In this document: positions 1,961 to 31,664 of the stretch, in pieces
Position numbering within the stretch: position 1 is the stretch's first letter
How the letters are laid out: every line of letters begins with the position of its first letter
Source: Minisyncoccota bacterium
GTDB taxonomy: Bacteria; Patescibacteriota; Minisyncoccia; Phycocordibacterales; Zambryskibacteraceae
Reading direction: 5' to 3'
Assembly: GCA_025450175.1 (NCBI GenBank)
Contig: JANWHY010000010.1
Span: forward strand, 1-40,535
DNA length: 40,535 bases
Translations under genes and position numbers: made by a program
The notes under the pieces: model-generated
Databases searched by the model: none
Told to the model about the DNA's origin: nothing
What the model saw: only the letters and a program-made list of their open reading frames with translations

Positions 1961-1992
1961 CCATTAATTTTAACCTACTTTATAAAAAGAAA

Positions 1993-2020
1993 GAGCCCCG
2001 TGCGCGTACGCCGGGGCCCT
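1993..2020 (-). terminator. GC-rich hairpin with T-run, downstream of the FtsZ-like cassette
   Basis: Reverse strand GGCCCCGGCGTACGCGCACGGGGCTCTTTCTTTTTATA. Confidence 0.7.
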
Positions 2021-2036
2021 CAAAGAACAGAAAGAA

Positions 2037-2609
2037 CTATCGACTACGTATTCTCACCTCACTTCGAGAAGGTTTGGGCATTTTGTTTCGTGTCAACAAA
2101 GCACCTATTCCTATTCCCACAAACAAGGAGATCACAATTACGAGGATGTAGTTAATTACCAGCCCCGAATTCGTAGATGGTCTCTCCTGGACAACTAGGG
2201 GGGGTGCCTCTTGAGGCCTAACCTCCACTGGTCTTGGTGCGACCTCTGGCTCTCGCGCCGTAGTCGGTGTTGGAGCTTGAGGTTCTAGGACTTCCGGAGT
2301 GAGTACTACAACTTCCTTTTCTGGTGTTCTTGGTGCTTGCGGAACTTTTGCTTCGCAATTCACGGAACTCCGCAGATAGATGTGCCGGTTGATCGCTAAC
2401 CCATTCCTTATTTCGGTTTGAGTTATCGAACTATCTCGGACCACCTGGTTGTACCAGCTTGGATCACAACCAGCCTTCTTGAGTACCGAGAGAACAGTTC
2501 TCTCGGTCTCGGTGATGTCGCCTAGCCATCGGTATTGTCCTTGGGCCAGGCTTGGGGTGGGAAGGGTCGTGAGACCCAAGCCCACCAGTACGATGAACAG
2601 GATTCTCAC
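2037..2609 (-). CDS. Secreted/membrane protein with signal peptide, Pro-rich linker and C-terminal TM helix
   Basis: N-terminal MRILFIVLVGLGLTTLPTPSLAQ, Pro/Glu-rich middle, C-terminal TM NYILVIVISLFVGIGIGALL with basic tail; GTG start after SD AAGGAGAGG. Confidence 0.75.
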   Translation of the reverse strand: MRILFIVLVGLGLTTLPTPSLAQGQYRWLGDITETERTVLSVLKKAGCDPSWYNQVVRDSSITQTEIRNGLAINRHIYLRSSVNCEAKVPQAPRTPEKEVVVLTPEVLEPQAPTPTTAREPEVAPRPVEVRPQEAPPLVVQERPSTNSGLVINYILVIVISLFVGIGIGALLTRNKMPKPSRSEVRIRSR

Positions 2610-2648
2610 GACCTCTCCTTATTTGAGGGCGTCGGGATGCTTTTCAAT

Positions 2649-4199
2649 TTACCGCCCAGCGATCTCTCTTGGTGAAAAAGATTCTGGAAGGTACTTTCGA
2701 AGTCCCGACCACCTACCACCATTTCCATTTGTCGAAGACTTCTCGACAGAGTTGTTCGGTTGCGGCGGTTCCTTCGATGTGGATACACTTTGGATCCGCT
2801 GAAACCTATGGATGACGTCTGGATCTACGGCGGAACCATTCGAGCCATTGGTGTGCGCAGCAGGCTGTGCCGCTGCCTGTTTCCTGACCGCCCCCTCCTT
2901 TTGTGGAGGAGTTACGATAAGTGTCGCAGGGGATGCCGGCGTCGTATCGGGCGCGGGAATCTCCGGCGTTGGGAGAGCAAGCGTGATCCGGGGAGCGCCG
3001 AGAGCTACAAGCTTGGATGCTTGAGCTTCGTCGCCGGGTCCGGGACCATTGGTGATGAGTGACAATATGACCCCACCGTCTGGTAACGGTCGGCTATCGA
3101 CTCCAAGATGAATCTCAATATTTCGACCTGATTCCTTAAGAATCTGCTGTCGAAACAACGAGTTCACCTTTTTTCCCAGGATCGCTGGGAACTTGGCTCC
3201 GAGCTGTCTCATACCTGCGATCTTTGCTCGCTTGTAACGAGTCGGGTCTTGGAGCCCAGTCATGGTCAAGCGTTGATGCAGATCAGGGGCCATCTTGTTC
3301 TCAAGATCTTCCTTGGAACACTCTCGAATCTTATCTAGTTCCTCCTTGGAGATCTTGATAGCCCGATAAAACAAGTATGACCCGTACTCCTTATCGGTAA
3401 TGGTTGTGAGGTCAGCTTCGTCACTGTGAATCGTGCGCGCGAAGCTCAAGAAGACGTTCTGGAACCCTTCCACGATAGGCATGAGTTCCTGTTCGTCTGC
3501 AAGTGCGTGCATCTCCTCAAGATCGAGGAGGTGGTAATTGGGGTGACCTTCCCTCTCCAGATGATCGATGATGTAATCATTGAAGATCTGAATAGTTGCC
3601 ACCCCTCGACCCATGAGTCGAGCATGAGCCTTGATAGCACGTGCCCAACGATCATCACCCTCTTCTTCTTCGTGGGGCATGACGACCCACGCAGTCAGAT
3701 GTGCATCAGGGAATTCATCCTGGATGAGTTCGGCGGCGGCTGTAATAGCTCCCGTGCCGCTTCCTCCACCCAAACCCGCACCCAAGAAGATGTGGTCTGC
3801 TCCAGCGAAAAGCGCCCTGATCTTCTCGATGCTTTCCTTGAAGGCCTCTTCACCTACCGTCTCTTTTCCTCCGGCGCCACGTCCTTTTGTAAGAACTGCT
3901 CCGAGAGGAATACGGAGGAATCGGCCGCTCGCCAGCCACTTCCTGAGATTCTCGCTCGCCCCCTCCATAGAGAAGAGGTTATCCAGCGCACTCTGGTCAG
4001 TGTTGGCTACTCCAATTCGAAGATTGGGATGATCGGCGGGATCGTTCTTGTCCACAAAGCGCAACCCTTGATTGCATGCGCACCCACCGAAGAAAGCCAT
4101 GACTACTTGAATTACGTGAGGTTCTGCCTTGAGTTCAGTGAGATTCTCCACGATACTCTCCGTCTCGCCTTGGGGCGGATGTTTACGATTAGTCGGCAT
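2649..4199 (-). CDS. Divergent FtsZ/tubulin-superfamily GTPase
   Basis: VIQVVMAFFGGCACNQG (T1-like), GVANTDQSAL (cf. FtsZ NTDxQAL), GRGAGGKETVGEEAFKESIEKI, and tubulin signature LGAGLGGGSGTGAITAAAEL; about 90-aa low-complexity C-terminal tail. Confidence 0.85.
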   Translation of the reverse strand: MPTNRKHPPQGETESIVENLTELKAEPHVIQVVMAFFGGCACNQGLRFVDKNDPADHPNLRIGVANTDQSALDNLFSMEGASENLRKWLASGRFLRIPLGAVLTKGRGAGGKETVGEEAFKESIEKIRALFAGADHIFLGAGLGGGSGTGAITAAAELIQDEFPDAHLTAWVVMPHEEEEGDDRWARAIKAHARLMGRGVATIQIFNDYIIDHLEREGHPNYHLLDLEEMHALADEQELMPIVEGFQNVFLSFARTIHSDEADLTTITDKEYGSYLFYRAIKISKEELDKIRECSKEDLENKMAPDLHQRLTMTGLQDPTRYKRAKIAGMRQLGAKFPAILGKKVNSLFRQQILKESGRNIEIHLGVDSRPLPDGGVILSLITNGPGPGDEAQASKLVALGAPRITLALPTPEIPAPDTTPASPATLIVTPPQKEGAVRKQAAAQPAAHTNGSNGSAVDPDVIHRFQRIQSVSTSKEPPQPNNSVEKSSTNGNGGRWSGLRKYLPESFSPREIAGR

Positions 4200-4537
4200 T
4201 GCCCAGGCTCACGACTTTCATCGTATTCCTGGCAAAAATCATTCGAGATCTGTCGGATCTTTCCCATTTTTCTAGGGTTTTCAACCGACAGCTCAAGTGC
4301 AATAACCATTTGTCCGAAAGAGAATAGACTCTCTCTCTTAATTTTGACTCGAGCGAAGGTCTTGTCCCCCGCTACTTCCGGGGCACCCGACCACATCCAT
4401 TCATCCAAGCGATGGCGAACCTCATGTGCATTTTCTTCTAAACATCGTCTACGCTCCTTAAGTCTCACAAGGTATGGGCGATAGAAGACTCCTCCTATCG
4501 CCGTGGTCAACACAACGGCTAGGATTAGCCAATTCAT
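4112..4537 (-). CDS. Hypothetical single-TM protein, first gene of the FtsZ-like cassette
   Basis: N-terminal TM MNWLILAVVLTTAIGGVFY; strong SD AAGGAGGTGCGA-ATG; 3' end overlaps the FtsZ-like ORF start by 88 bp in another frame. Confidence 0.65.
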   Translation of the reverse strand: MNWLILAVVLTTAIGGVFYRPYLVRLKERRRCLEENAHEVRHRLDEWMWSGAPEVAGDKTFARVKIKRESLFSFGQMVIALELSVENPRKMGKIRQISNDFCQEYDESREPGQCRLIVNIRPKARRRVSWRISLNSRQNLT

Positions 4538-6248: not shown

Positions 6249-7916
<1,668 letters not shown>

Positions 7917-7930
7917 TTAGAATAATTAGG

Positions 7931-8287
7931 TCAATTTTTGATAATGGCCAACACACTCTCCTCCTTCACTAGATAAAATTCTTCTCCCCCCTGCTCGACC
8001 TCATCGTATCCATACTTAGAGAAGACTATTGTGTCCCCCACCTTCACTCTCATAGGGATGAGTCTACCTTCTTCATATTTTCCCTCACCAACGGCTAGCA
8101 CCTTACCCTGAGCCGCTTTCTCCTTGGTCATCGAATCAGGAAGGATGATGCCAAAACTTTTACTCTCACCTCGCACCTCTGCTTCTGTAAAAGGTCGGAC
8201 AAGTATCCTGTCGCCGAACGGCTTAATCTTTGTACTTTCTGATTTGCTTACTGTCTTAGAGACTTTCTTAGTATTTTTCTTTTTCAT
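7931..8287 (-). CDS. groS: Co-chaperonin GroES
   Basis: KPFGDRILVRPFTEAE...GKVLAVGEGKYEEGRLIPMRVKVGDTIVFSKYGYDEV. Confidence 0.95.
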   Translation of the reverse strand: MKKKNTKKVSKTVSKSESTKIKPFGDRILVRPFTEAEVRGESKSFGIILPDSMTKEKAAQGKVLAVGEGKYEEGRLIPMRVKVGDTIVFSKYGYDEVEQGGEEFYLVKEESVLAIIKN

Positions 8288-8380
8288 GGTGCCGCAATTA
8301 TATGCAAAAAATTCATGAAGTCAAAGTCTGTAGGGGTTGAGGTCTTCGCCAGGTTAGGGTATGATACCTCCTTGTACGTT

Positions 8381-8608
8381 ATGATCGGTATTCTTCCCTA
8401 CATTCAAGTCGGATTAAGTATTCTTCTCATTACAGGCATTCTCCTCCAGCGTTCTGAGGAGAGTCTTGGTGCTGCCTTCGGATCCGAGGGTGCTGGTGGA
8501 GGCCGCTTCCTTCGTCGTGGGTTCGAGAAGTTCCTCTTCAATGCCACTCTTACAGTAGCGGCACTCTTTGTCCTGGTAAACTTCCTCGGTCTTCTACTTG
8601 CTCGTTAG
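8381..8608 (+). CDS. secG: Preprotein translocase subunit SecG
   Basis: Two TMs with ILLQRSEESLGAAFGSEGAGGGRFLRRGFEKFLFNAT. Confidence 0.88.
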   Translation: MIGILPYIQVGLSILLITGILLQRSEESLGAAFGSEGAGGGRFLRRGFEKFLFNATLTVAALFVLVNFLGLLLAR

Positions 8609-8618
8609 TCTACTAACC

Positions 8619-10379
8619 ATGTACAAAAATCTGCGCGACCTCTCTTCAAAGCGCTTCTCTCTTCCTAAAGAGCAGGAGGTGAGGAAGACCATCCGCTCCT
8701 TTACCATAGCAGAGCGAGCGGTCTTCTCCTTCTTCGCTCTTTTCTTCGTCGTTTCTGGACTTATCCTACTCCTCAAGGTTAATGGTGAGTTCCTGGTCGA
8801 GGTGCCTACCACTGGCGGCAAGCTCGTGGAAGGTGTGGTAGGTAACCCGCGTTTCATTAACCCTGTCCTTGCTATATCCGAGGCTGACAAGAACTTGGTC
8901 TCACTTGTTTACTCAGGCCTGGTGCGCCTCACTCCTCAAGGTGAGCTGGTGAACGACCTTGCAGCCAATATCACCATATCCGACAACCGCCAGAACTACA
9001 CCGTAGCCCTACACCCAGAAGCACGTTTCCACGACGGTAATCCCATCACTGCAGACGACATCATCTTCACTGTACAGAAGATCATAGACCCTGCTATCAA
9101 GAGTCCGCGACGAGGCAACTGGGAGGGGGTGACCATCGAGAAGGTCGATGACCTCACCGTAATCTTCACTCTTAAACAGCCTTACACGCCCTTTCTATAC
9201 AACTTAACTATCGGTATCCTCCCCAAGCATATTTGGAAGAACGTAACCAACGACGAGTTCTCCTTCAGTCAGTTCAACACCTATCCTATCGGCTCCGGCC
9301 CTTACGCTGTAAAAGACGTTACCAGAAACTCTGGTGGCATCCCCAACTTCTACCAACTTGAGCCCTTCAGTGCTGTCCTCGGCCAAGCACCTTTTATCAA
9401 GACACTCGAATTTAAATTCTACTCAAGTGAGGAGGCACTTCTTGAGGCTTTCGATAACCACGAGATCGAGAGTTTGAGCGGACTGTCTCCAGAGAATCTC
9501 GCCGAGCTTAACCTCAAGGATTCGAGCATCCTCTCTGCGCCTCTTCCACGAGTCTTCGCCGTCTTCTTGAACCAGTCCAAGTCTCGCGCTCTTCTCCAAC
9601 CAGAAGTCCGACGTGCGCTCGATCTTGCCGCTCCTAAGGAAGAGATCATCAAGGAGGTGCTTCTGGGTCAAGGTAGTGCTATTGAGGGTCCATTACCGGC
9701 GGGCTCTTATGCGGGTAATAGTATCGCTGACCTCGCTACCACTACAGAAGGCAATATCCTAGAGGCACAAGCTATCCTTGCTAAGGCCGGCTGGAAACCA
9801 AATGTAGATACAGGCGTTCTTGAAAAAAAGTCAGGCTCTGCTACAATAACTTTGTCGTTTTCAATCTCTACTGGTGATGCAAATGAACTCAAGGAAGTAG
9901 CTAACCGCTTAGCTCTCTCTTGGCAGAAGTTGGGTGCAGCGATCGAGGTCTTGTCCTTCGAGACAGGAGACCTCAATCAGACCGTCATCAGACCGAGAAA
10001 CTTCGACGCTCTCTTGTTTGGCGAGGTGGTAGGTAGAGACGCCGATCTATACCCCTTCTGGCACTCTTCGCAAAGGGCTGATCCAGGGTTGAACATTGCT
10101 CTCTACGCCAACAGTAAGGCTGACAAGCTCCTAGAAGATGCAAGGAGCGCAACTACCAGAGAGAAGGCCCGCGAGATCTACCTTGCCTTCTCCGAAGAGT
10201 TAAAGAGGGATAGGCCAGCCGTCTTCCTATACACCCCAAGCTTCCTCTATGTGGCCCCGAAGCAGGTACATGCTATCGATCTCGGTCAGTTGGCAGTCTC
10301 TCAAGACAGATTCTTGGGCATAAGAGAGTGGTATATCGAGACAGATCATGTTTGGAAAATATTTGCAGAAAAACAATAG
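8619..10379 (+). CDS. Peptide ABC transporter substrate-binding protein (SBP_bac_5, OppA/DppA-like), N-terminal TM anchor
   Basis: GNPRFINPVLAISEADKNLVSLVYSGLVRLTPQGELVNDLAANITISDNRQNYTVALHPEARFHDGNPITADDIIFTVQKI. Confidence 0.92.
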   Translation: MYKNLRDLSSKRFSLPKEQEVRKTIRSFTIAERAVFSFFALFFVVSGLILLLKVNGEFLVEVPTTGGKLVEGVVGNPRFINPVLAISEADKNLVSLVYSGLVRLTPQGELVNDLAANITISDNRQNYTVALHPEARFHDGNPITADDIIFTVQKIIDPAIKSPRRGNWEGVTIEKVDDLTVIFTLKQPYTPFLYNLTIGILPKHIWKNVTNDEFSFSQFNTYPIGSGPYAVKDVTRNSGGIPNFYQLEPFSAVLGQAPFIKTLEFKFYSSEEALLEAFDNHEIESLSGLSPENLAELNLKDSSILSAPLPRVFAVFLNQSKSRALLQPEVRRALDLAAPKEEIIKEVLLGQGSAIEGPLPAGSYAGNSIADLATTTEGNILEAQAILAKAGWKPNVDTGVLEKKSGSATITLSFSISTGDANELKEVANRLALSWQKLGAAIEVLSFETGDLNQTVIRPRNFDALLFGEVVGRDADLYPFWHSSQRADPGLNIALYANSKADKLLEDARSATTREKAREIYLAFSEELKRDRPAVFLYTPSFLYVAPKQVHAIDLGQLAVSQDRFLGIREWYIETDHVWKIFAEKQ

Positions 10380-10405
10380 ACTATAAAAACAACTAATAAT
10401 CCTTA

Positions 10406-12178
10406 ATGAACAATACTTTTTCTAGAGGCCTGAGAGGTAAGACCCATCGTCGCCGTGGCAACACTCCTATAGCGGCCAAGAAGCCTGCCGACATTGTCCC
10501 TCCTATCGGAGACGCTATTCGCATCATCCCCCTTGGTGGTGTAGAAGAGATCGGCAAGAACATGACTGTCATAGAGTATGGTAACGACATACTTGTAGTA
10601 GATGCGGGTATCCAGTTTACCGATGATGACACTCCAGGTGTTGATTACATACTGCCTAATATTAAATATCTTGAAGAGAGGAAGGATCGCATACGCGGTA
10701 TCGTGATCACTCACGGCCACTTGGACCACATTGGTGGCATCCCCTACCTCATCACTCGCCTGGGTAACCCCCCTATTTATACCCGTGAGTTCGGTGCTCT
10801 CCTCATCCAGAAGCGACAAGCAGAGTTCCCTCACCTAGCACCACTTGATATTCGCATCATCGATGCGACAGATAAGTCCTTACCTATTGGCGAGCATCTC
10901 AAGATCCGCTTCTTCGGCCTCACTCACTCGATCCCAGACTCAACCGGTATTATCATCGAGACTCCTTATGGAGATATAGTAAACACCGGAGACGTGCGTA
11001 TCGAGAACGAAGGTGGTGTCCCCGTCGAGCGAGAGATTGAGCAGTACAAGATGTTTAAAGATAGGAAGGTGCTCCTCTTCACCATGGACTCAACCGGTAT
11101 CGATAAACCCGGCTTCTCCCCTTCTGAGGCATCTATTCTTAAAAACATCGACAAGATCGTGGCCGAAGCACCAGGCAGAGTGATCATCGCCACCTTCGCC
11201 TCTCAAGTGGAGAGAATTATCGAATTTTTAAACACTGCTCGCCGCTATGGTAGGAAGGTTCTTATCGAGGGTCGCAGTATGAAGACCAATGTCGACATCA
11301 TCAAGCACCTTAACCTCGTCGACACCTCTCACATCGTGCCTATTGAAGAGATAGAGAAGTATCCGCCCAACAAGATCATGATGATCGCCACAGGTGCGCA
11401 AGGAGAGGAGTTTGCCGCTCTTATGAGGATGTCCAACAAGACTCACAAGCTCGTGCGTCTCCAGGCTTCAGACACTGTGATCCTCTCCTCTTCTGTTATC
11501 CCAGGCAATGATCGCGCTGTAGAGAAGCTCAAGGATAACCTCTTCCGCCATGATGCACGCATCATCACTTACCTAGACTCCGATGTACACACTTCCGGTC
11601 ATGGCAAGCGTGGTGAGCTTGAGTGGGTACACCGCCAGATCCCTTACAAATACTTCATGCCAGTACATGGCAGTCACTTCCGTCTCAAGATGCATGCTGA
11701 GCTTGCAAGAAGTCTAGGATGCCCACCTGAGAACATCATCGTTCCCGAGAATGGCTCTATCATCGAGATTCAAGACAAGGGCGAGAAGCTCGTAAGACTC
11801 CCAGAGAAAGCACCTTCAGATGACATGGTAGTGGAGGGTCTCTCTATCGGTGATATCTCAGAGGTGGTGATCCGCGACAGGAAGATGTTGGCAGAAGATG
11901 GCATCTTCGTAGTCATCGCCCTTGTCCATGCTCGTACAGGCAGACTTAAGAAGTCGCCCGACATCATTGCTCGCGGATTCGTGTATCTGCGCGAATCACA
12001 AGACCTTCTCTCCGAAGCTCGCCTAGTAATCAAGCGCTCTATAGAGTCGACTACTGTAGGAGCTAACCCCATCAACTTCGACCACACCAAGAATATCGTG
12101 ACCGAAGATGTGTCCCGCTTCCTCTTCCAACGCACCGCGAAGAAGCCAATTGTGATACCTGTAATATTAGGGGTCTAA
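10406..12178 (+). CDS. rnj: Ribonuclease J
   Basis: Metallo-beta-lactamase HGHLDHIGG; GRSMKTNVDI; PVHGSHFRLKMHAELA; full-length RNase J architecture. Confidence 0.95.
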   Translation: MNNTFSRGLRGKTHRRRGNTPIAAKKPADIVPPIGDAIRIIPLGGVEEIGKNMTVIEYGNDILVVDAGIQFTDDDTPGVDYILPNIKYLEERKDRIRGIVITHGHLDHIGGIPYLITRLGNPPIYTREFGALLIQKRQAEFPHLAPLDIRIIDATDKSLPIGEHLKIRFFGLTHSIPDSTGIIIETPYGDIVNTGDVRIENEGGVPVEREIEQYKMFKDRKVLLFTMDSTGIDKPGFSPSEASILKNIDKIVAEAPGRVIIATFASQVERIIEFLNTARRYGRKVLIEGRSMKTNVDIIKHLNLVDTSHIVPIEEIEKYPPNKIMMIATGAQGEEFAALMRMSNKTHKLVRLQASDTVILSSSVIPGNDRAVEKLKDNLFRHDARIITYLDSDVHTSGHGKRGELEWVHRQIPYKYFMPVHGSHFRLKMHAELARSLGCPPENIIVPENGSIIEIQDKGEKLVRLPEKAPSDDMVVEGLSIGDISEVVIRDRKMLAEDGIFVVIALVHARTGRLKKSPDIIARGFVYLRESQDLLSEARLVIKRSIESTTVGANPINFDHTKNIVTEDVSRFLFQRTAKKPIVIPVILGV

Positions 12179-22143: not shown

Positions 22144-22167
22144 AAAGGCGGAGATCACTCCGCCTTT
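22144..22167. terminator. Bidirectional hairpin AAAGGCGGAG-atca-CTCCGCCTTT
   Basis: Perfect 10-bp arms between convergent genes. Confidence 0.8.
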
Positions 22168-23108
22168 CTCGCATGTACTACCGCTCGCTCTCGCTTGCGA
22201 GAATACATGTCTTTGTCAGCTTGAGCAAATAGGTCCTCGAAGTTTCCCTCAGGGTTGTCGATCTCGTCCCGAGAAATCCTCGCTGACCCTATGGACGCAA
22301 AGAGTTCAACGCGTCGCTCCTCCCTATCAAGAAGTTTGATTCCGCGAATTCGCTCTTCAATGGTTGAAGTTACAACCTCCGCAGCCTCCTTGGGACCAGG
22401 CAACCAGACAACAAACTCGTCGCCCCCATATCGACAGACCATATCCGATTCCCGGATGTGGTCTCGGATAGCATGGGCCACCCTCTCAATTGCTTGTGTG
22501 CCGATAGGATGGCCATGGGTATCGTTGATGAGTTTAAATCGATCCATATCGAGAACAACAAGGTTAAAAAGGTCAGGATGCCGCCGACGATTCTTAGGAA
22601 GGGCTTTCTCTCTCCAGGCACCTACCATACTTCTGACTACCAACTCCTTGAAATTACGAAAGTTGGAGATCCCTGTGACCGGCTCAATAGTAGAGGCCAT
22701 TAGACGTTGTAATGCTTGAGATTCAGGAGTGGTGTAAAGAAGAACTCGTTTCAGAGATTCACCCTTACTAAAAGCCGCGTAGGCTCCCGCCTTGATGGCT
22801 TCCTCCTCTATTTCTAAAGTGAGGTTCCCGCTCCAGATGTAGATTATGACCCTGTCAGAGGCCACATCCATAATCCGACGAAGAAGCGAAAGACCGGTTT
22901 CTGAACTACTCTGTAGAGCGTAGTCGAGAAATGCCACGAAGTACTCTCGCGGATACTCCTTCGTGATCAGATCAATCGCCGATCGAATATTTGAAGCTGT
23001 GATGAGTTTCGTTGTAGGAGCTAGAACCTCCCCCTGTGTGCGCACATATCGTCGAAATAACTGATCGTCGTCCACTACGAGGACGATCGGTTCAACAATC
23101 GTCGTCAT
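22155..23108 (-). CDS. REC-GGDEF response regulator (putative diguanylate cyclase)
   Basis: REC-like VLVVDDDQLFRRY...FLDYALQSS...; GGDEF domain DMDRFKLINDTHGHPIGTQAIERVAHAIRDHIRESDMVCRYGGDEFVVWLPG; SD AAGGAG. Confidence 0.9.
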   Translation of the reverse strand: MTTIVEPIVLVVDDDQLFRRYVRTQGEVLAPTTKLITASNIRSAIDLITKEYPREYFVAFLDYALQSSSETGLSLLRRIMDVASDRVIIYIWSGNLTLEIEEEAIKAGAYAAFSKGESLKRVLLYTTPESQALQRLMASTIEPVTGISNFRNFKELVVRSMVGAWREKALPKNRRRHPDLFNLVVLDMDRFKLINDTHGHPIGTQAIERVAHAIRDHIRESDMVCRYGGDEFVVWLPGPKEAAEVVTSTIEERIRGIKLLDREERRVELFASIGSARISRDEIDNPEGNFEDLFAQADKDMYSRKRERAVVHARKAE

Positions 23109-23208
23109 GTGAACTCCTTGGCTAACGTTTCTGCCCTAAGAATACAAGGAATATAAGAGAAAGCAACCCTTTCATCATCTATTCATAAGAGTTTTATACC
23201 ATTTAAAC

Positions 23209-23385
23209 GTGCTTTCATGGTCAATAACATTTTTGGTCCTGGCAGTAATCGCAGCCATATTTGGCTTTGGCGGCATCGCCACTGTCGCAGTTGGACTTGC
23301 GAAGATTCTGTTCTTCATCTTTATCATCCTCTTCATCCTCTCATTCGTGTTTAGAGGAGCAAGAAGGATAGATGATGCAGTCTAA
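23209..23385 (+). CDS. DUF1328-like small membrane protein (GTG start), absent from the ORF track
   Basis: GTG CTT TCA TGG...TAA: (M)[57 protein letters not shown]. Confidence 0.7.
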
Positions 23386-23412
23386 AGCCAAGGTCAATCT
23401 ATACGAGATTAG

Positions 23413-23456
23413 GAGTTGCTAACCTCAAGCACTGTTTCAAGTGCTTGAGGCAACTC
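23413..23456. repeat. Long hairpin: 6-bp outer stem, 4-nt bulge, perfect 11-bp inner stem
   Basis: GAGTTG-ctaa-CCTCAAGCACT-gtttca-AGTGCTTGAGG-CAACTC. Confidence 0.7.
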
Positions 23457-23613
23457 TTGTATATCAAGCTCTCCAAACCAAAATGAATTTTACTATCCAC
23501 AATAATAAAGAAATTTCTTACGAGAACTTAGCCACAAAATCACTTCCTTCATGAAGTTTGTATTAAACAATACAAGATTTATTGCCCGCAACTAGCGTGT
23601 ATCGCTAAGATAA

Positions 23614-23630
23614 CTTCATAGAAGCTTCAG
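23614..23630 (+). promoter_or_regulatory. 11-bp-spaced direct repeat CTTCAT-N5-CTTCAG, candidate response-regulator box
   Basis: Located -58 to -42 from the 23672 ATG; similar repeat at 30668..30684. Confidence 0.4.
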
Positions 23631-23671
23631 AAACGGTACGCGCTTCATGTTAATAACCAGCTAATTATTGA

Positions 23672-24574
23672 ATGAAAAAAGAAAGAGTGGGTAATGTGCG
23701 AGTCGCGGTCTTAGATCGCGAACTTTTTGTATCCTATTATTCCCTCACTATAGGAGCGGCCATCTTTTTGGCACTCATTATGTTCTTCACAAGGACGATC
23801 CCCCTATATGCTGTAGAAGCACGGGTGGTACCATCCGACTTCCGCTTCAACTTCAACACTCCGGGAGTCCTTATTGAGGCAGGTTCTATGGATACATCAA
23901 GTAGCCCATACTTCTGGGTCAACTCAGGAGCAAAACTCATTCTCAATGCCCAAGGCGCAGGGAGCACCGTAATAGGTAACCTACCTACGAGTGATCCCTT
24001 CCGTATCCTCTATGCGGCCAATAACCCTGAGGACACAGATAATGGTTACCATCCTCAGAATATCTTCCGCCTACTTACTCGTAGCACCTGGCAAAACTCA
24101 GGCCAGGAAGTGACCTTCCGTATAAAGGCTCAGAACCTCTCGAACTCTTCTAACCGCCAAGGTCACAACGGCGTGCTCCTCATGAGTCGTTACGCCAATA
24201 GTGCTAACCTCTACTACGCTGGTATTAGGAATGACGGCCAAGCCATTATCAAGAAGAAGATCAATGGTGCTTACTATACTCTTGCCGGAGCTCAGATCTT
24301 CGGTACCGCAAGCCAGTACAACCGCAGCTCCAACCCCTCTCTCCTACCGCTCAATACTTGGATGAGACTTAAGACCGAGGTTACAAACCAGGCAGATGGC
24401 TCGGTTAAGATCAATCTCTTCCTAGACAGAGAAAATACTGGTCACTATACCAGTATCCTCTCCACTACCGACAACAACGTCGGGGGCACGGCCCTAAGGG
24501 CCGCAGGTTATGGTGGGATTAGAACAGACTTCATGGACGTCGAGTTCGAGAACTATAGGAACGTCCAGATCTAG
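23672..24574 (+). CDS. Membrane-anchored/secreted LamG-like (concanavalin-A-like fold) protein
   Basis: N-terminal TM then beta-rich domain; shares EDTDNGYHPQNIFRL, NLYYAGIRNDG.AIIKKKINGAY, GGIRTDFMDVEF with 25929..26783. Confidence 0.7.
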   Translation: MKKERVGNVRVAVLDRELFVSYYSLTIGAAIFLALIMFFTRTIPLYAVEARVVPSDFRFNFNTPGVLIEAGSMDTSSSPYFWVNSGAKLILNAQGAGSTVIGNLPTSDPFRILYAANNPEDTDNGYHPQNIFRLLTRSTWQNSGQEVTFRIKAQNLSNSSNRQGHNGVLLMSRYANSANLYYAGIRNDGQAIIKKKINGAYYTLAGAQIFGTASQYNRSSNPSLLPLNTWMRLKTEVTNQADGSVKINLFLDRENTGHYTSILSTTDNNVGGTALRAAGYGGIRTDFMDVEFENYRNVQI

Positions 24575-24811
24575 TTAAACTCCTTCCTCATCCATCGCGT
24601 CACTCTCACCTTCCCCACTAGTATCCATCGATAGTTCCGAGCTTACATCGGTAGAACTATCGTACTCCCTATCGGGTAGTGCACTTAAGGCGCTTATAGT
24701 CTCCTCGTCGGCCCCCTTATCTCGAGCCTTCTTGATAATGGCTTCCTTATCTTGAGGATAATCTATTCCATCTATGTATCTTTGCACTGTTGCGGAATTA
24801 GTGTTTGCCAT
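24575..24811 (-). CDS. DUF2795 family protein
   Basis: VQRYIDGIDYPQDKEAIIKKARDKGADEETISALSALPDREYDSSTDVSSEL. Confidence 0.85.
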   Translation of the reverse strand: MANTNSATVQRYIDGIDYPQDKEAIIKKARDKGADEETISALSALPDREYDSSTDVSSELSMDTSGEGESDAMDEEGV

Positions 24812-24971
24812 AAAATAATTTTATTAATTAATAATCTACTTGCCACCATCACCGTACTCACACAACGATACGTGAGCCTGGTGAAAGTGACATGAACCGG
24901 TATAGAAAAAATAATATACTGGTGTACATATACTTCATTAGCAATTCACTCCTGGAGTATTTAATAACTAT

Positions 24972-25238
24972 ATGAAAAGCGCAATAATCACTATCCTAAT
25001 CCTCGGAGCTGTAGCGGGCCTCTTATACTTCTACTGGTTCGACTGGAGAAGTGCTGAGACTAGAGGCGACGAGAATGTCTTCTGCACCCTAGATGCCAAG
25101 CTCTGCCCTGATGGCTCCTATGTAGGCCGGGTACCTCCGACGTGCGAGTTTGCTATGTGTCCCAACCCCACCAACGCTACTAGTAGCGCAACTACTACCC
25201 CCGACGACGACATCTACAGTACACCTAACGCTTCTTAG
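24972..25238 (+). CDS. Small TM-anchored Cys-containing protein
   Basis: N-terminal TM plus CTLDAKLCPDGSYVGRVPPTCEFAMCP motif. Confidence 0.65.
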   Translation: MKSAIITILILGAVAGLLYFYWFDWRSAETRGDENVFCTLDAKLCPDGSYVGRVPPTCEFAMCPNPTNATSSATTTPDDDIYSTPNAS

Positions 25239-25249
25239 ACATAATTAAA

Positions 25250-25275
25250 GGGCGCCACGATATTTTGTGGCGCCC
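25250..25275. terminator. Hairpin GGGCGCCAC-gatatttt-GTGGCGCCC
   Basis: Perfect 9-bp arms between convergent genes. Confidence 0.75.
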
Positions 25276-25308
25276 ACACCATCGACCCCTATACGAGGTT
25301 TCTCTCGC

Positions 25309-25857
25309 TCAATCCTCGGAGAGAAGCCCTGACTGGGCCTTCTGTTGTGCCTGATCTACGGCACTCGTGTTGAGAAACCGCTCGATATCGAGGATTTGAG
25401 GATCTTTCACCTCGACTACCTCCCGCTTGGCCGTGGTTTTGTAGCGTACACGCTGGCCGTCATCTTCCTCATCCCATATCCGTCTACCAGGTGAGACGTA
25501 GTAGGACCAACCTACCTGGGCACTGATTTCGATGGTCTTGCCGAAAGTTTCGGGGAAGACCGTGTTGACGATCTCGCCGACGACGATCGGACCGATAATA
25601 CCCCAGTCGAATGCCTCGCCAATAGAGATCGTGATCTCATATGAGTGGAAAAATCCAGACGTCACTCCCGGAATCGCTTGAAGTCGCGACATCAGTAACT
25701 TGCCAAGATCGCCAACCTTCTCACGACCAAACCCATAGGAACCACCAAAGCCGTACTGATCACAACCTCCTTCCGTCACATCACGAGTAATGTGAAAGCT
25801 TCTGTGAGTTGGATTCGGATGCTGAACCGCCTTCACATGCGGTCTGATGCTAGTCAT
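25309..25857 (-). CDS. Hypothetical protein
   Basis: ATG preceded by SD AAAGGAGGCCAATC; terminator downstream; no domain recognised. Confidence 0.6.
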   Translation of the reverse strand: MTSIRPHVKAVQHPNPTHRSFHITRDVTEGGCDQYGFGGSYGFGREKVGDLGKLLMSRLQAIPGVTSGFFHSYEITISIGEAFDWGIIGPIVVGEIVNTVFPETFGKTIEISAQVGWSYYVSPGRRIWDEEDDGQRVRYKTTAKREVVEVKDPQILDIERFLNTSAVDQAQQKAQSGLLSED

Positions 25858-25928
25858 GATTGGCCTCCTTTGAGCCAGATTTTCATTTCTGAAATCAATT
25901 ATACACCTAAACTATATTTTTGTCAATA

Positions 25929-26783
25929 TTAAAGTTTCCAAACTTCGAAATCTTTGAAACTAACATCCATAAAGTCCGTACGGATACCGGCGAAGCCCGC
26001 ATCGTATACGGGCTTACCTCCCATTACCATGGGGCTATCCTTGGCCTCTAAGACCTTCTGCCAGTTCCCGGTACCATCTCGATCCAAGTAAAGCGTGATA
26101 AGCACTTCCTTCTTCAGGCCATTCTTTATATCGCTCTTCACACCAATCCAAGTATTCTTCGGGAGAAGATTGGGAGCACTATCTCTATCGTACTCACCCG
26201 GGAAGACGGGCTCTTGAGCCAGCGTGGTGTACTCACCATTAATCTTCTTCTTGATCACCGCCGTACCATCCACACGGATACCTGCATAGTAGAGGTTGTT
26301 TGGATCCTGGAAGCGCAGCATGAGAAGTAGGCCATTAGAAACATTTCTATTGTGACTCGTACTCAAGTTATCGTTAAGAATTTTGAACTTAGCTTCCACG
26401 GAGAAGTCTTGCCAGGTATTGCGACTTATGAGACGGAATATATTTTGTGGGTGGTACCCCTGATCTGTATCTTCTGAGTTAGAAATCTTGTAACGCAAGC
26501 GCCACTTAGATAGAGCAGAGAGATCTCCCTGGTTCGTGCGCCCGGCATTGTCCAAGATGCTCATTACTCCTCCAGAGTTGAGCCACCAGTAAGGACTCTT
26601 ACTCTCGGTCATACTGCCCGACTCCTGGAGTTCTCCGGGCACATTAAAGTGGTATATAAAAGGAGAATCCACCAGAGCTACCTCTGAGGCAGAATCCCAA
26701 GAGAAGTTCAGTGCTATAAGGGCAAGGAGTAATAAAGAAGCAATAATAATTACTGTAATGCCTAATCTGTAGATTACCTGCAT
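25929..26783 (-). CDS. Membrane-anchored LamG-like protein, paralog of 23672..24574
   Basis: N-terminal TM LGITVIIIASLLLLALIAL; beta-rich domain alignable with 23672..24574. Confidence 0.7.
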   Translation of the reverse strand: MQVIYRLGITVIIIASLLLLALIALNFSWDSASEVALVDSPFIYHFNVPGELQESGSMTESKSPYWWLNSGGVMSILDNAGRTNQGDLSALSKWRLRYKISNSEDTDQGYHPQNIFRLISRNTWQDFSVEAKFKILNDNLSTSHNRNVSNGLLLMLRFQDPNNLYYAGIRVDGTAVIKKKINGEYTTLAQEPVFPGEYDRDSAPNLLPKNTWIGVKSDIKNGLKKEVLITLYLDRDGTGNWQKVLEAKDSPMVMGGKPVYDAGFAGIRTDFMDVSFKDFEVWKL

Positions 26784-26794
26784 TATCTATTGAG

Positions 26795-28333
26795 TTACTT
26801 GGATATTTCTATGTTATCAAATTTTGCCTCAGCCTTCCCGTTGGTGGCATCCCATATCTCCATACCCACACCACCATTAGCTAACCTCTGACTTACTCCA
26901 GAGACAGAGATTGCAACCGCATCGTTGACGAGACATGAGACAGTACCGCCATTTACCTTTATAGAGAGCTTAAGATCTGTCTTGGGTAAGGTATATGGAT
27001 TCTCGGCGAGAGTGTAAGAAATACCATTGCGCAGAGACTTCACTCCGACTTTCCCTTTATTATCGAAGTTACAACCGAAGTAGTTCTTCTCATCGGCCCG
27101 ACGAGCAGCAAGCACTACGTTGCTTCCACTTATCCAGTTCACAGTAGTGCTGAAGGTGTAATCTGTCCACCACCAGCTACCTCTAAGACCCACAGAGGCT
27201 CCTGTTGTGTCCGGCTTCGCCTTGAGGGTGAGCTCATCACCCTTTAGCACATCTCCCCAATTCCCCACCCACTCATCTCCGAAGACAAACTGGGTGTACG
27301 GCAAGTCCTTAGCGAGTCCAGCCTCCATAACTTCGACTAAGTGCTCTCCTGTCCAGTCGCCAGCTGGCTCGATCCTTTTCATCATTACTTTATCGTCACT
27401 TGGGTAGTTGAAGGACTCTGCCGTGCCAATCCAGTTCTGATAGAAGGCTAGCCGATAATACTTAGATACTTCTTGTGACACTATATCTGTCGCTTCGGGA
27501 TAATTAAAACCATCTTGACCATAGTCACCGAAGGGGAAGGCGAAGGCACGAATCTTCTTACCCAGAGTCTCTTCCAAATCCTTCTTAGAATTAGACATGT
27601 CGTAGACCACTCGATCTCTAAATTCTTGAGGAGTCTCTTGCCTATTCTCAGTATCAAACCAGAAAAGGTTCGAGTAATAGTGCCCAATATCACCCTCCTT
27701 ATTTATAAAGTACCAATCATGACTATCTCGTCCGTGTGACTCTACTTCCCAGCGGTCGCTATTCTCTAGAGCTTGGAGTTCGTATGGAGAGAGATAGTAG
27801 GGAGACTGATCTTCGGAGGGGTGGGTAGAGCGCTTAGTAATAGCAAACATCACTGCGTGTAGACCAAGATCCGACAAGATTGGATCAGCTGGGTAGAAGG
27901 TGTCCTTTCTACCATCGTCGAAGGTAAGCAAGAACGACTTCTCTGGTAAGGCTATCCTTGAGCGGATGAAGTGCTCAAACTCATCTAGAGTAATACTCTT
28001 CCACCCTGCGACAGTAAGAGCGTGCATATGTTCAGAAAACATAGTAGGGTTGAAGTCATCTTTACTATCAGGTAACCCGTGATAAGCAAGTACTGGTATG
28101 GAGCGGGCCAGTCTCCCACTATCTCCATAATTTACAGTAGCAGCGCTTCTCTTCAGAGTTTGCTTAGACCACCAATAGTTGAGACTCTCTCCCACACGGC
28201 GGGTGTAGAGACCGTAGGCTTCACTCACCTTGTAGTGATTCTCAATAGAGAAGCTTGAAAGAGCCGCCACTCCGATAAGAGTCGACAAGACTACTAGGTT
28301 TATTATTTTTCTTTTTGTAAAAGTGAAGAACAT
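26795..28333 (-). CDS. Polysaccharide deacetylase (NodB/PgaB-like) with C-terminal LamG/DUF1080-like domain
   Basis: IPVLAYHGL, LLTFDDGRKDTFYPA, ESHGRDSHD (metal-binding His), AFAFPFGDYGQ; C-terminal WWTDYTFSTTVNW...NYFGCNFDNKG. Confidence 0.88.
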   Translation of the reverse strand: MFFTFTKRKIINLVVLSTLIGVAALSSFSIENHYKVSEAYGLYTRRVGESLNYWWSKQTLKRSAATVNYGDSGRLARSIPVLAYHGLPDSKDDFNPTMFSEHMHALTVAGWKSITLDEFEHFIRSRIALPEKSFLLTFDDGRKDTFYPADPILSDLGLHAVMFAITKRSTHPSEDQSPYYLSPYELQALENSDRWEVESHGRDSHDWYFINKEGDIGHYYSNLFWFDTENRQETPQEFRDRVVYDMSNSKKDLEETLGKKIRAFAFPFGDYGQDGFNYPEATDIVSQEVSKYYRLAFYQNWIGTAESFNYPSDDKVMMKRIEPAGDWTGEHLVEVMEAGLAKDLPYTQFVFGDEWVGNWGDVLKGDELTLKAKPDTTGASVGLRGSWWWTDYTFSTTVNWISGSNVVLAARRADEKNYFGCNFDNKGKVGVKSLRNGISYTLAENPYTLPKTDLKLSIKVNGGTVSCLVNDAVAISVSGVSQRLANGGVGMEIWDATNGKAEAKFDNIEISK

Positions 28334-28359
28334 TTTTTAAAATTTTAAATTTTAAATTT

Positions 28360-29676
28360 TTAACGTGTTCCCCAACGATTGTCCGACATGGTTACCATGG
28401 CCCACGGCAACTGCCAGATGAGTACCACTGTAGAGAACCAGAAGAAGACTACAGCATTGACCCAATTACGATCTCCAGCTTCGATCCTGTAGTAGATCCC
28501 ATGTAGGAAGAGCATTAGGAAGAGCCCTGCCAGGTAGACGATTGGGAGCGTGCCATCGATCACCGGGTTCCAGATCACTGCGCGGAAGAAAACAAGTGGA
28601 GCAAAAACAGCTAAGAAGATATAAGTGTAGAAGAACATGGCAGCCAAAGGATTCTTCTTCCAGAGGAAGGAAGCGGCGATGATGGTCTCTCGTACCCATG
28701 ACTTCTTCCACCTTTGCTGCTGTTTGATGTAGGTTCTAAACTTGTTCGGTACGACGGTGGTGGCCAAGGCCTCGCGAGAGTAGACGCTCTTATACTTGCG
28801 CAAGATATAGTTGGTAAGAGAGCGATCGTCACCGAAAGTGCATGGAGTGCCTAAGAAGGTCTGGTTCTGCCACTCATCGATAAACTCATCCAGGTAACTC
28901 TTACGATAAGCACTGCAGCAACCTGGGCAGCAAGTCACGACCCCAAAGACAGACTCCGCCGCCTTATAAATCTTGAAGGAGATATAGTAACGCAGAGACT
29001 GCATCCTAGTAAGGATATTCTCCTTATAGTTGTGTACGTCAGTGTGACCAGAGACAGCTCCAACCTCCGGGTTGGTAAAGTGCTTGACCAAGTGCCAAAC
29101 ACAATCCTTATCTATGAAGCTATCTGAGTCGACGAAGATGATGATCTCTCCTGTAGCCATCTTCACCCCCTCGGCCATACCATCGCGCTTCCCGCGGTTG
29201 ACCTTCCAGTCTACAACGTCGAAGCGCTTAACAAGATGCCCGAACTCCTTCTGGACCTTCTTCATCTCGAGAAGAGTGTTGTCAGTAGAGCCATCATTGA
29301 TAGCGATCACCTCCATCTTGTGCTTCGGGTAGTTCGCCGCATAGAAGCATCGCAAGGTTTGGGCAATATTATCTCCCTCATTTTTGGCCGGTACGACGAA
29401 GGAGACAGAGGGTACATAACTCGTATCCACCGCAACACTCTTGTGGAAGTACGACAGCGAAAAGCGCGACAGGATGTATGTCGTTATAAGCATGCTATAG
29501 ATAGTAAAGACGATGTGGTCGGTGTGATGACTCCAGGAGAAAAGCTTTATCATCACAATCACGTAGATGATAAAGAAGAATGAGAAACGAAGACCCAGAT
29601 CTCGAGCAATGGTATTGCCCTCTCCTCCTTTGGCCAAAGGATCGCCTTTGTACTTTATCGCCGCAGTTTGCTGCAT
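28360..29676 (-). CDS. Processive GT2 glycosyltransferase, hyaluronan/chitin-synthase-like
   Basis: SFVVPAKNEGDNIAQTL, INDGSTDNT, IIFVDSDSFID, NQTFLGTPCTFGDDRSLTNYILRKYKSVYS, QQQRWKKSWVRE (Q-x-x-R-W), multiple TMs. Confidence 0.92.
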   Translation of the reverse strand: MQQTAAIKYKGDPLAKGGEGNTIARDLGLRFSFFFIIYVIVMIKLFSWSHHTDHIVFTIYSMLITTYILSRFSLSYFHKSVAVDTSYVPSVSFVVPAKNEGDNIAQTLRCFYAANYPKHKMEVIAINDGSTDNTLLEMKKVQKEFGHLVKRFDVVDWKVNRGKRDGMAEGVKMATGEIIIFVDSDSFIDKDCVWHLVKHFTNPEVGAVSGHTDVHNYKENILTRMQSLRYYISFKIYKAAESVFGVVTCCPGCCSAYRKSYLDEFIDEWQNQTFLGTPCTFGDDRSLTNYILRKYKSVYSREALATTVVPNKFRTYIKQQQRWKKSWVRETIIAASFLWKKNPLAAMFFYTYIFLAVFAPLVFFRAVIWNPVIDGTLPIVYLAGLFLMLFLHGIYYRIEAGDRNWVNAVVFFWFSTVVLIWQLPWAMVTMSDNRWGTR

Positions 29677-29755
29677 GATGGAAGTTAGTATTAAGGAATT
29701 TCAGAAATAAAAATTCCCTCTCCATTTAAGCAATAAGAGATGAAATGAGGGTGAA

Positions 29756-29959
29756 CTATTGGAACTTCTCTACCAGAGTTGTGATGAGGTGAGCGAGTTT
29801 GTCGAGCTCTTTAAGATTTTCTTGTAGGACTTTTTTGGCCTTGGGGTCAAGATTCTCATCCATGAGAACGAGCTCAATGTTGGCATGCATAATAGCGAGC
29901 GGGGTACGCAATTCATGTGCAATATATGAAGCTGTGCTCTTGTCTTCTCCTGGGTTCAT
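29756..29959 (-). CDS. Stand-alone HisKA (DHp) domain protein without HATPase
   Basis: MNPGEDKSTASYIAHELRTPLAIMHANIELVLMDENLDPKAKKVLQENLKELDKLAHLITTLVEKFQ-stop; H-box AHELRTPLA. Confidence 0.85.
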   Translation of the reverse strand: MNPGEDKSTASYIAHELRTPLAIMHANIELVLMDENLDPKAKKVLQENLKELDKLAHLITTLVEKFQ

Positions 29960-29970
29960 AAAGTTTTTCG

Positions 29971-30645
29971 TTAAGTCTTTAAACGATACCCAATGCCACG
30001 CACGGTCTCCAAGGTGCCTTCAGCCGTCCCCCAATCAAGCTTCTTGCGAAGATTCTTTACATGCACATCTACCACGTTGGAGAAAGAGCTATAGTTGAAG
30101 TCCCATAAGTGGCTTAAGAGTTCTTCGCGCGAGATCACTTTGTCTGGGTTCCTCAAGAAGTGTTCGAGGAGCATAAATTCCTTAAGAGTAAGTGGTAACT
30201 CTTTGCCCCGCTTAGAGGCCTTGAGAGTGGTGGTATTGAGCTCCACATCGTGAGTCGAGAGGATGGTGGGTATGGCAGTGTGTGGGCGCCTGAAGATGGA
30301 GGTGATGCGAGCCAAGAGCTCATCGAAGGAGAAGGGCTTAACTATGTAGTCATCTGCACCTGAGAGAAGGAGCTCCACCTTAATGTCAGTTTCATTCCTC
30401 GCCGTTAGTATGATGATGGGGGTAGTAATGTTCCTTTCGCGCAAGGCCTTGGTTATAGAGAAGCCGTCTCTATCGGGGAGCATAAGGTCGAGGATCACCA
30501 GGTCGTAATCCATATGGTTGAGCGAGAGGCGCTTGAAACCTTCCTCACCATTGTTGATCACATCTACGGCATAGCCCTTCTTCTCGAGTCCTGCCTTAAT
30601 GACCTCGGCTAGCTTAACCTCGTCTTCTACAATAAGTATTCTCAT
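29971..30645 (-). CDS. OmpR/PhoB-family response regulator
   Basis: MRILIVEDEVKLAEVIKAGLEKKGY...DLVILDLMLPDRDGF...IVKPFSFDELLARI; winged helix ELLSHLWDFNYSSFSNVVDVHVKNLRKKLDWG..ETVRGIGYRL. Confidence 0.96.
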   Translation of the reverse strand: MRILIVEDEVKLAEVIKAGLEKKGYAVDVINNGEEGFKRLSLNHMDYDLVILDLMLPDRDGFSITKALRERNITTPIIILTARNETDIKVELLLSGADDYIVKPFSFDELLARITSIFRRPHTAIPTILSTHDVELNTTTLKASKRGKELPLTLKEFMLLEHFLRNPDKVISREELLSHLWDFNYSSFSNVVDVHVKNLRKKLDWGTAEGTLETVRGIGYRLKT

Positions 30646-30667
30646 ATCAAAAGCTTATAACTCCCGG

Positions 30668-30693
30668 ATGAAGCCTTCATGAAGGAGCTTCAT
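30668..30693. promoter_or_regulatory. ATGAAG-N5-ATGAAG direct repeat (CTTCAT on the reverse strand) with CTTCATGAAG palindrome; candidate response-regulator box
   Basis: GATGAAGCCTTCATGAAGGAGCTTCAT in the divergent regulator/dehydrogenase intergenic region. Confidence 0.45.
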
Positions 30694-30740
30694 AATACTA
30701 TACACAAAGATTTCATACTCTACATATACACTTACAAACT

Positions 30741-31664
30741 ATGACAAAAAAACAACATGTAAAGATTGGCTGCATAGGCCAAGGGTTCGTGGGTAAGAAT
30801 CAGGCAGATGACTTCGAGCGGCGTGGGTTTGAGGTAGTTAGGTATTCCTTGGAGCCAAACTTTATCAACAATGCTCCCCTCATCGAGGGTTGCGATGTGG
30901 TCTTCATAGCTGTGCCTACCCCTACTCTACCTACTGGTTTCGACTACAACACCGTACGCCAAGCTCTGACTAAGGTCGGAGTGGGTAAGATTGCGGTGAT
31001 CAAGTCTACAGTGATTCCTGGTACTACAGAGATTTTGCAAAAGGAGAATCCCCAACTCATCGTTCTCCATGCCCCGGAGTTCTTGAGTGAGGCTACCGCT
31101 GCTCGTGATGCCGCCTTCCCTACTCGTAATATTGTGGGAATGCCATCTAACAGTTCCCGACACCGAATGGCCGCAGAACTGGTACTCGAGATTCTCCCTC
31201 ATGCACCTTACAATAGGATCTCTTCTTCTAAAGAAGCTGAGCTTATAAAGTATGGTCGCAATACTTTAGGCTATACTCGTATTATCTTTGCAAACATTCT
31301 TTACGAACTCGCAAACCAAGTAGGAGCCGACTGGCAAGTGATAGAAGAAGCCATGAGTGCCGACCCAGAGACAGGACCTACTTACATGAGACCGCTCCAT
31401 AAGTCTGGACGCGGAGCTGGAGGTCACTGCTTTATCAAAGACTTCGCCGCTATGAGAGAATTCTTCCAAGAACATGTAGGTAGCGAGAAGAACTCTCTAC
31501 GAGTTCTAGAAGCTCTCGAAGAGAAGAACCTGGAACTCTTGAGATCGACGAGCAAAGATCTAGACCTCCTCGCTGGAGTATATGGTCCAGATATCTCCCC
31601 TATTCAGAGAGACGGACTAGATCCTATTCTTGCTGTAAAGCAAACTAAGAGAAAGAGTGCTTAA
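30741..31664 (+). CDS. UDP-glucose/GDP-mannose dehydrogenase family protein, short form
   Basis: IGCIGQGFVGKNQADDF Rossmann-like; VVFIAVPTPT; STVIPGTTE; APEFLSE; AELIKYGRNTLGYTRIIFANILYELA; GAGGHCFIKD (Cys-containing GGxCFxKD). Canonical C-terminal domain not apparent. Confidence 0.85.
   Translation: MTKKQHVKIGCIGQGFVGKNQADDFERRGFEVVRYSLEPNFINNAPLIEGCDVVFIAVPTPTLPTGFDYNTVRQALTKVGVGKIAVIKSTVIPGTTEILQKENPQLIVLHAPEFLSEATAARDAAFPTRNIVGMPSNSSRHRMAAELVLEILPHAPYNRISSSKEAELIKYGRNTLGYTRIIFANILYELANQVGADWQVIEEAMSADPETGPTYMRPLHKSGRGAGGHCFIKDFAAMREFFQEHVGSEKNSLRVLEALEEKNLELLRSTSKDLDLLAGVYGPDISPIQRDGLDPILAVKQTKRKSA

Follow-up and report, generated by a model that had tools for sequence, protein, structure and literature searches.

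Pairs of a cytoplasmic filament and a single-pass membrane anchor, such as FtsZ-ZipA and MreB-RodZ, are established in bacteria, and division systems with two FtsZs exist in archaea and chloroplasts. Among the FtsZ-like families described to date, FtsZl1 (Tubulin_2, PF13809) is a non-division family with membrane-associated partners, present in addition to canonical ftsZ (Makarova and Koonin 2010; PMC2875224). FtsZl2 keeps the T1, T4, T6 and T7 motifs, has its own C-terminal region and has been described only in Proteobacteria, with no conserved gene neighbours (PMC2875224). Furthermore, a divergent second copy of FtsZ occurs in some CPR genomes (PMC9871819). Herein, we describe a three-gene cassette from a Patescibacteria genome, in which a GTPase is followed by a predicted outward-facing membrane protein. 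On sequence comparison, this GTPase and its homologues are rated as a new FtsZ-like clade within the known superfamily, one that has a membrane protein as its constant partner, and the pairing suggests a hitherto undescribed filament system linked to the cell envelope.

The window, the whole stretch of 40,535 nucleotides that was analysed, is contig C10 of a genome (G000) of 442,116 bases in 12 contigs, estimated to be 96% complete. Its cassette consists of three minus-strand ORFs, overlapping or adjoining (ORF1, the GTPase gene and ORF3), which were found where a first-pass annotation of the sequence had placed them, as were the hydrophobic segments it had described as signal and transmembrane (TM) segments of the partner proteins. 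The features are as follows:

4112..4537, minus strand: ORF1, positional partner of the GTPase, with an N-terminal TM segment, a basic stretch and a soluble domain placed in the cytoplasm by prediction
2649..4199, minus strand: FtsZ/tubulin-superfamily GTPase, 516 aa (PF00091 match, 2.4e-21), with homologues in G009, G193 and G305
4071..4088, minus strand: T1 loop GGCACN, residues 38-43 (alignments)
3852..3884, minus strand: T3 region GRGAGGKETVG, residues 106-116 (alignments)
3747..3770, minus strand: T4 tubulin signature GGGSGTGA, residues 144-151 (alignments)
3411..3428, minus strand: T7 loop HSDEAD, residues 258-263, at the NxDxxD position (alignment)
2037..2609, minus strand: ORF3, with a signal peptide, small ectodomain, Pro-rich linker, C-terminal TM segment and short basic tail
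2331..2543, minus strand: ORF3 ectodomain, residues 23-93, with Cys48 and Cys85 (alignment of five members; model)
2091..2147, minus strand: ORF3 TM segment, residues 155-173, then basic residues (TM prediction)
1991..2021, minus strand: terminator-like hairpin closing the cassette (RNA fold -24.3 kcal/mol, z -3.8)

The ATG of ORF1 at 4537 is preceded by the ribosome-binding site AAGGAGG. The start of the GTPase is uncertain, lying at ATG 4199 or at GTG 4151, the latter with the better-looking ribosome-binding site as judged by eye. At the other end, a strong terminator had been proposed; the hairpin at 2021-1991 is indeed stable and is followed by a T-rich run, but it was not among the terminators listed by a simple scan. 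The cassette is bordered upstream by htpX, lemA and groEL and downstream by a NUDIX gene and tRNA-Ser.

By its PF00091 match and its T4 motif, which reads GGGSGTG against the signature GGGTGTG, the GTPase is classed from sequence as a member of the FtsZ/tubulin superfamily. Its score against the TIGR00065 FtsZ equivalog is 59.3 bits (cut-off 295), and against Tubulin_2 (PF13809) 16.8 bits (cut-off 27), a profile that the other three cassette members do not match. Neither FtsZ_C (PF12327) nor CetZ_C (PF21011) matches any of the four cassette GTPases, and a PAFLR-type tail is absent from the window protein. Despite the absent FtsZ_C match, a C-terminal domain is present in the AlphaFold2 model, which predicts a GTPase domain, a long H7 helix, this second domain and a disordered tail beginning after about residue 388. 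The model reaches mostly TM 0.73-0.84 by target length against FtsZ crystal structures, values to be read with the bias towards the FtsZ fold that comes from the FtsZ rows in its input alignment. In a PDB search, the protein matched FtsZ at 2e-14 and TubZ at an E of about 0.01.

The nucleotide-binding motifs were compared in an alignment of the window GTPase with 18 FtsZs and two cassette relatives. The T3 and T4 motifs align with those of the FtsZs, in agreement with the FtsZ-like nucleotide-binding series recognized earlier, and the T1 loop, already noted as atypical, is altered yet retains Gly-Gly and Asn. The first-pass annotation had seen no T7 loop, a view that the alignment overturns: the loop reads H258-S-D260-E-A-D263, in which both aspartates are invariant across the alignment and the residue at position 258, Asn in >90% of rows, is His. 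As a result of this exchange, hydrolysis may be slow or lost in the window protein. The relatives read NFDQAD (G305), NLDPND (G009) and NIDPMD (G193); the full NxDxxD is thus found in three of the four cassette members, and the T3, T4 and T7 motifs are retained.

The ordinary ftsZ of the window genome, a separate copy that the earlier annotation had proposed to look for, lies on contig C1 beside ftsA, and its product reads NIDFAD in the T7 loop and has a PAFLR tail. Likewise, the cassette gene occurs in addition to canonical ftsZ in G193 and G305 as well as in the window genome (G000), where it stands outside the ftsA (dcw) locus and is not the sole ftsZ-type copy. In phylogenetic trees, the four cassette GTPases form a single clade, with support of 94/82 when two extreme sequences are included and 100/99 without them, which falls outside bacterial FtsZ, archaeal FtsZ and the second-copy FtsZ from other orders of the class; a joint clade with second-copy CPR FtsZ received p 0.033. 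The proposal that the GTPase is not the housekeeping ftsZ is upheld by the ftsA-linked canonical copy and by these trees: the protein is placed outside ordinary FtsZ, is not the only ftsZ of its genome and has a TM neighbour conserved elsewhere. Identity is 24-47% among the four cassette members and about 20% between cassette GTPase and FtsZ. Since all branches are long, the deep placement is unsure; as judged from the trees, the cassette GTPases most likely constitute a clade of their own within the FtsZ/tubulin superfamily, one that evolves fast. With canonical bacterial and CPR FtsZ they share the GTPase domain, the T3 and T4 motifs, the T7 aspartates and the predicted two-domain fold, but they differ in lacking an FtsZ_C match or PAFLR-type tail, and in an altered T1, another operon and a separate clade.

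Six genomes from other orders of the same class (L120, L121, L122, L124, L125, L126) encode a second, divergent FtsZ of 412-542 aa alongside a short FtsZ of about 310 aa. The cassette GTPases resemble these proteins as a second FtsZ-family gene in a CPR genome, but the second copies form a clade of their own (100/99), a comparison that covers the sampled copies (L120-L126). ORF1 and ORF3 profiles found no partner near the sampled second-copy genes. A further locus, L123, on a 3.3 kb contig (G587:C127), holds a CetZ-like gene (PF21011, 24.1 bits) adjoining a gene for a TIG/Ig-repeat protein with a C-terminal TM segment; this short contig may be contamination.

The homology of ORF3 across the cassettes is solid at the sequence level (BLASTP 4e-14 to the G009 protein; profile E 4e-9 to that of G305). 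Its plan comprises a signal peptide, a small ectodomain, a Pro-rich or other linker, a TM segment and a tail varying in length, which in the window has about 17 residues and thus leaves little for binding a filament. The five aligned ectodomains share two invariant Cys and one invariant Trp, and the conserved Cys pair (Cys48 and Cys85 in the window) suggests a disulfide outside the cell. The ectodomain is modelled as beta-alpha-alpha-alpha-beta (pLDDT 81); it has no Pfam match, LysM included, and the nearest solved structure to the model, a LysM domain, was found without significance (E 4.4, TM 0.48). Several other candidates were discarded. Weak ORF3 matches in G079, G078 and G000:C5 lie within a gapA-like gene and one in G177 is in an unrelated frame, while six viral matches to the ORF3 motif were dropped; in L039, the sole locus of these that was read, the match lies inside a glycosyltransferase-type gene.

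ORF1, which like ORF3 of the window has no Pfam match, is predicted to keep its soluble part inside the cell, since its TM segment is followed by basic residues. A counterpart in G305 (L046:10280-10720) occupies the same place and has the same N-terminal TM segment and basic stretch; its sequence similarity to the window protein is not above that of shuffled alignments. As, furthermore, the ORF upstream of the GTPase in G193 is without an N-terminal TM segment, ORF1 is regarded as a positional partner only. The claim of conserved membrane partners accordingly stands for ORF3, which is kept with the GTPase in four genomes, but not for ORF1, which is shared by position and in part by architecture.

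Set against FtsZl1, the cassette is alike in having a non-division FtsZ-like protein, a canonical ftsZ elsewhere in the genome and membrane-associated partners. It differs in its neighbours (htpX, lemA and NUDIX in the window, without vWA, OmpA, GTPase or kinase genes) and in a T7 region that is alignable, whereas that of FtsZl1 is not. FtsZl2 is similar in its kept T1, T4, T6 and T7 motifs and its own C-terminal region, and is distinguished here by its published description (host group and gene neighbours). FtsZ-ZipA and MreB-RodZ offer a functional analogy of a cytoplasmic polymer with a single-pass membrane partner, but no sequence relation to the cassette was found.

A GTPase gene followed by an ORF3 homologue was found in four genomes of two families; the gene order, whose conservation had been suggested as a check, is thus kept in three genomes besides that of the window. 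G009 (Ca. Parcubacteria viral-cat_46_8), of the same genus as the window genome, has GTPase and ORF3, G305 (MGR_bin369) has an ORF1-like gene, GTPase and ORF3, and G193 has an upstream ORF, GTPase and ORF3 together with an orphan ORF3-type gene. The G009 GTPase gene is split by an in-frame TAA (L045:892-894) at the end of the T7/H8 region, after which the frame resumes; this may be a real split, decay or an assembly error. The family occurs in 3/397 genomes of the order, a patchiness that indicates dispensability, and in two of the 17 genomes of the genus and 2/17 in the family of G305. In a phylum sample of 381 genomes, the window's own genome alone scored clearly, and others at threshold resemble ordinary FtsZ scores; because the window GTPase, when scored with a profile built from the other members, does no better than canonical FtsZ, such outliers can be missed. 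A scan of 85,462 species with the N-terminal half of the GTPase returned two known loci and FtsZs, nothing else. The viral contigs, phages and plasmids searched held no cassette member, just ordinary-looking FtsZ, and the defence library yielded nothing credible.

A distant CPR family contains a further arrangement of interest (G591, L131:5383-8360), a singleton there, in which the gene for a very divergent tubulin of 573 aa with a degenerate T4 overlaps by 4 nt a gene encoding a signal peptide, Pro/Ala-rich linker, TM segment and tail. The tubulin groups with the cassette clade at just 88/54, and the partner domain has no significant match to the ORF3 profile. The pair is treated as an analogue of the cassette, its relatedness being short of proof.

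As to chromosomal position, lemA-htpX is present in six sister genomes, in five of which a GGDEF gene comes next after htpX; in G004 this GGDEF gene has NUDIX and tRNA-Ser after it. The order htpX-GGDEF-NUDIX there thus contrasts with htpX-cassette-NUDIX in the window. In G009 the cassette is followed by an RRM gene that has 87% identity to the RRM gene found after htpX-GGDEF-tRNA-Ser in G012, so that it may occupy a locus of the window type, although the G009 contig ends too early to decide. Each cassette has a higher GC content than any other stretch of equal size around it, while the GC3 of the window cassette is ordinary and flanking inverted repeats are absent from it. Vertical pairing of the two same-genus copies (window and G009) is not rejected (p 0.22).

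On contig C17 of G193, the cassette and the orphan ORF3-type gene (L067:197-1705, 7785-10472) are oppositely oriented and have end elements in common, namely a 5' leader of 31 nt (87%) and a 3' region of 86 nt (73%). The 14-mer AAAACAAAGAGAAA is found four times across the entire G193 genome, each time at one of these unit ends and inverted; it was rejected as a unit end in G305, where both copies are within ordinary genes. An untranslated element, GAGATCTC..GCGAG..ACTTG, is conserved 3' of ORF3 in G305 (L046:7890-7946) and in the two units of G193 (0-1 of 1000 shuffles; leave-one-out E 0.025), and was not found when looked for at the window copy.

Altogether, we consider it about an even chance that the cassette is a rare accessory operon of cytoskeletal type, in which a membrane-tethered FtsZ-like polymer is coupled through ORF3 to the envelope and serves something other than routine division. 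The GTPase would most likely assemble in a GTP-dependent manner into filaments along the inner side of the membrane, where the cytoplasmic ORF3 tail, and perhaps ORF1 as well, may hold them. ORF3 is predicted to cross the membrane once and to present its small domain with the Cys pair outside the cell, on a stalk rich in Pro, and through this outward domain and single crossing the filament would couple to the wall or cell surface, acting as a local envelope scaffold or remodeller and not as part of routine division. Since Patescibacteria genomes are very small, the retention of a second tubulin together with a membrane partner suggests that its function repays the cost. If correct, this non-division tubulin with an outward-reaching partner would extend the FtsZ superfamily of Patescibacteria to a role linked with the envelope or surface, and, the GTPase-ORF3 pair being defined, heterologous expression offers a direct test of the idea. 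A bolder version, which we regard as rather unlikely, envisages a dedicated trans-envelope CPR tubulin machine, whose non-division filament would be linked by a stalked single-pass surface protein to the wall or to a host cell; such a machine would recur, extremely diverged, in distant CPR families (G591 being a further case) and would spread as an accessory cassette.

The FtsZ-like fold and motifs would also suit an auxiliary or regulatory second FtsZ that co-assembles in the same Z-ring, with ORF3 as an accessory division protein. Two-FtsZ division is known from archaea and chloroplasts, and second FtsZ copies occur in other CPR (PMC9871819); occurrence in two genomes out of 17 in the genus, however, means that the protein is not needed for division, and the location outside the ftsA locus, the roughly 20% identity to FtsZ and the long branches further lower this reading to a modest chance. 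Those same long branches, with the lost T7 Asn in the window and the in-frame stop in G009, could instead mark a decaying, functionless FtsZ duplicate, but intact frames of 516, 481 and 478 aa, retained T-loop motifs and a partner gene kept in four genomes make this very improbable. Capture of a plasmid or phage segregation tubulin of the TubZ/PhuZ type by the chromosome would explain a divergent tubulin in an accessory locus and the weak TubZ match in the PDB; it is scarcely credible given that the cassette is closer to FtsZ, whose match is far better, that no phage or plasmid member or mobile-element setting was found, and that the locus has neither a DNA-binding partner gene nor a centromere-like repeat array. 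Finally, the GTPase-ORF3 pair may be cargo of a horizontally acquired, possibly mobile module (for surface variation, host contact, competition or defence), any filament role being secondary. The patchy distribution, the higher local GC in every cassette, the inverted end elements common to the G193 cassette and the orphan ORF3 unit, and the place of the cassette where sister genomes have a GGDEF gene are all in its favour; weighed against the lack of a phage, plasmid or viral-contig member and of a defence-library match, the window copy without flanking repeats and with ordinary GC3, and a vertical pairing that is not rejected, it too is a minority prospect. Of these readings, the envelope-coupled accessory operon is the best supported.

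Elsewhere in the window, inspection of positions 22155-31664 by eye suggests two similar secreted proteins (23672-24574 and 25929-26783), two regulators (one of the GGDEF and one of the OmpR type), a glycosyltransferase, and proteins resembling a polysaccharide deacetylase and a sugar dehydrogenase; the region looks like an exopolysaccharide locus.
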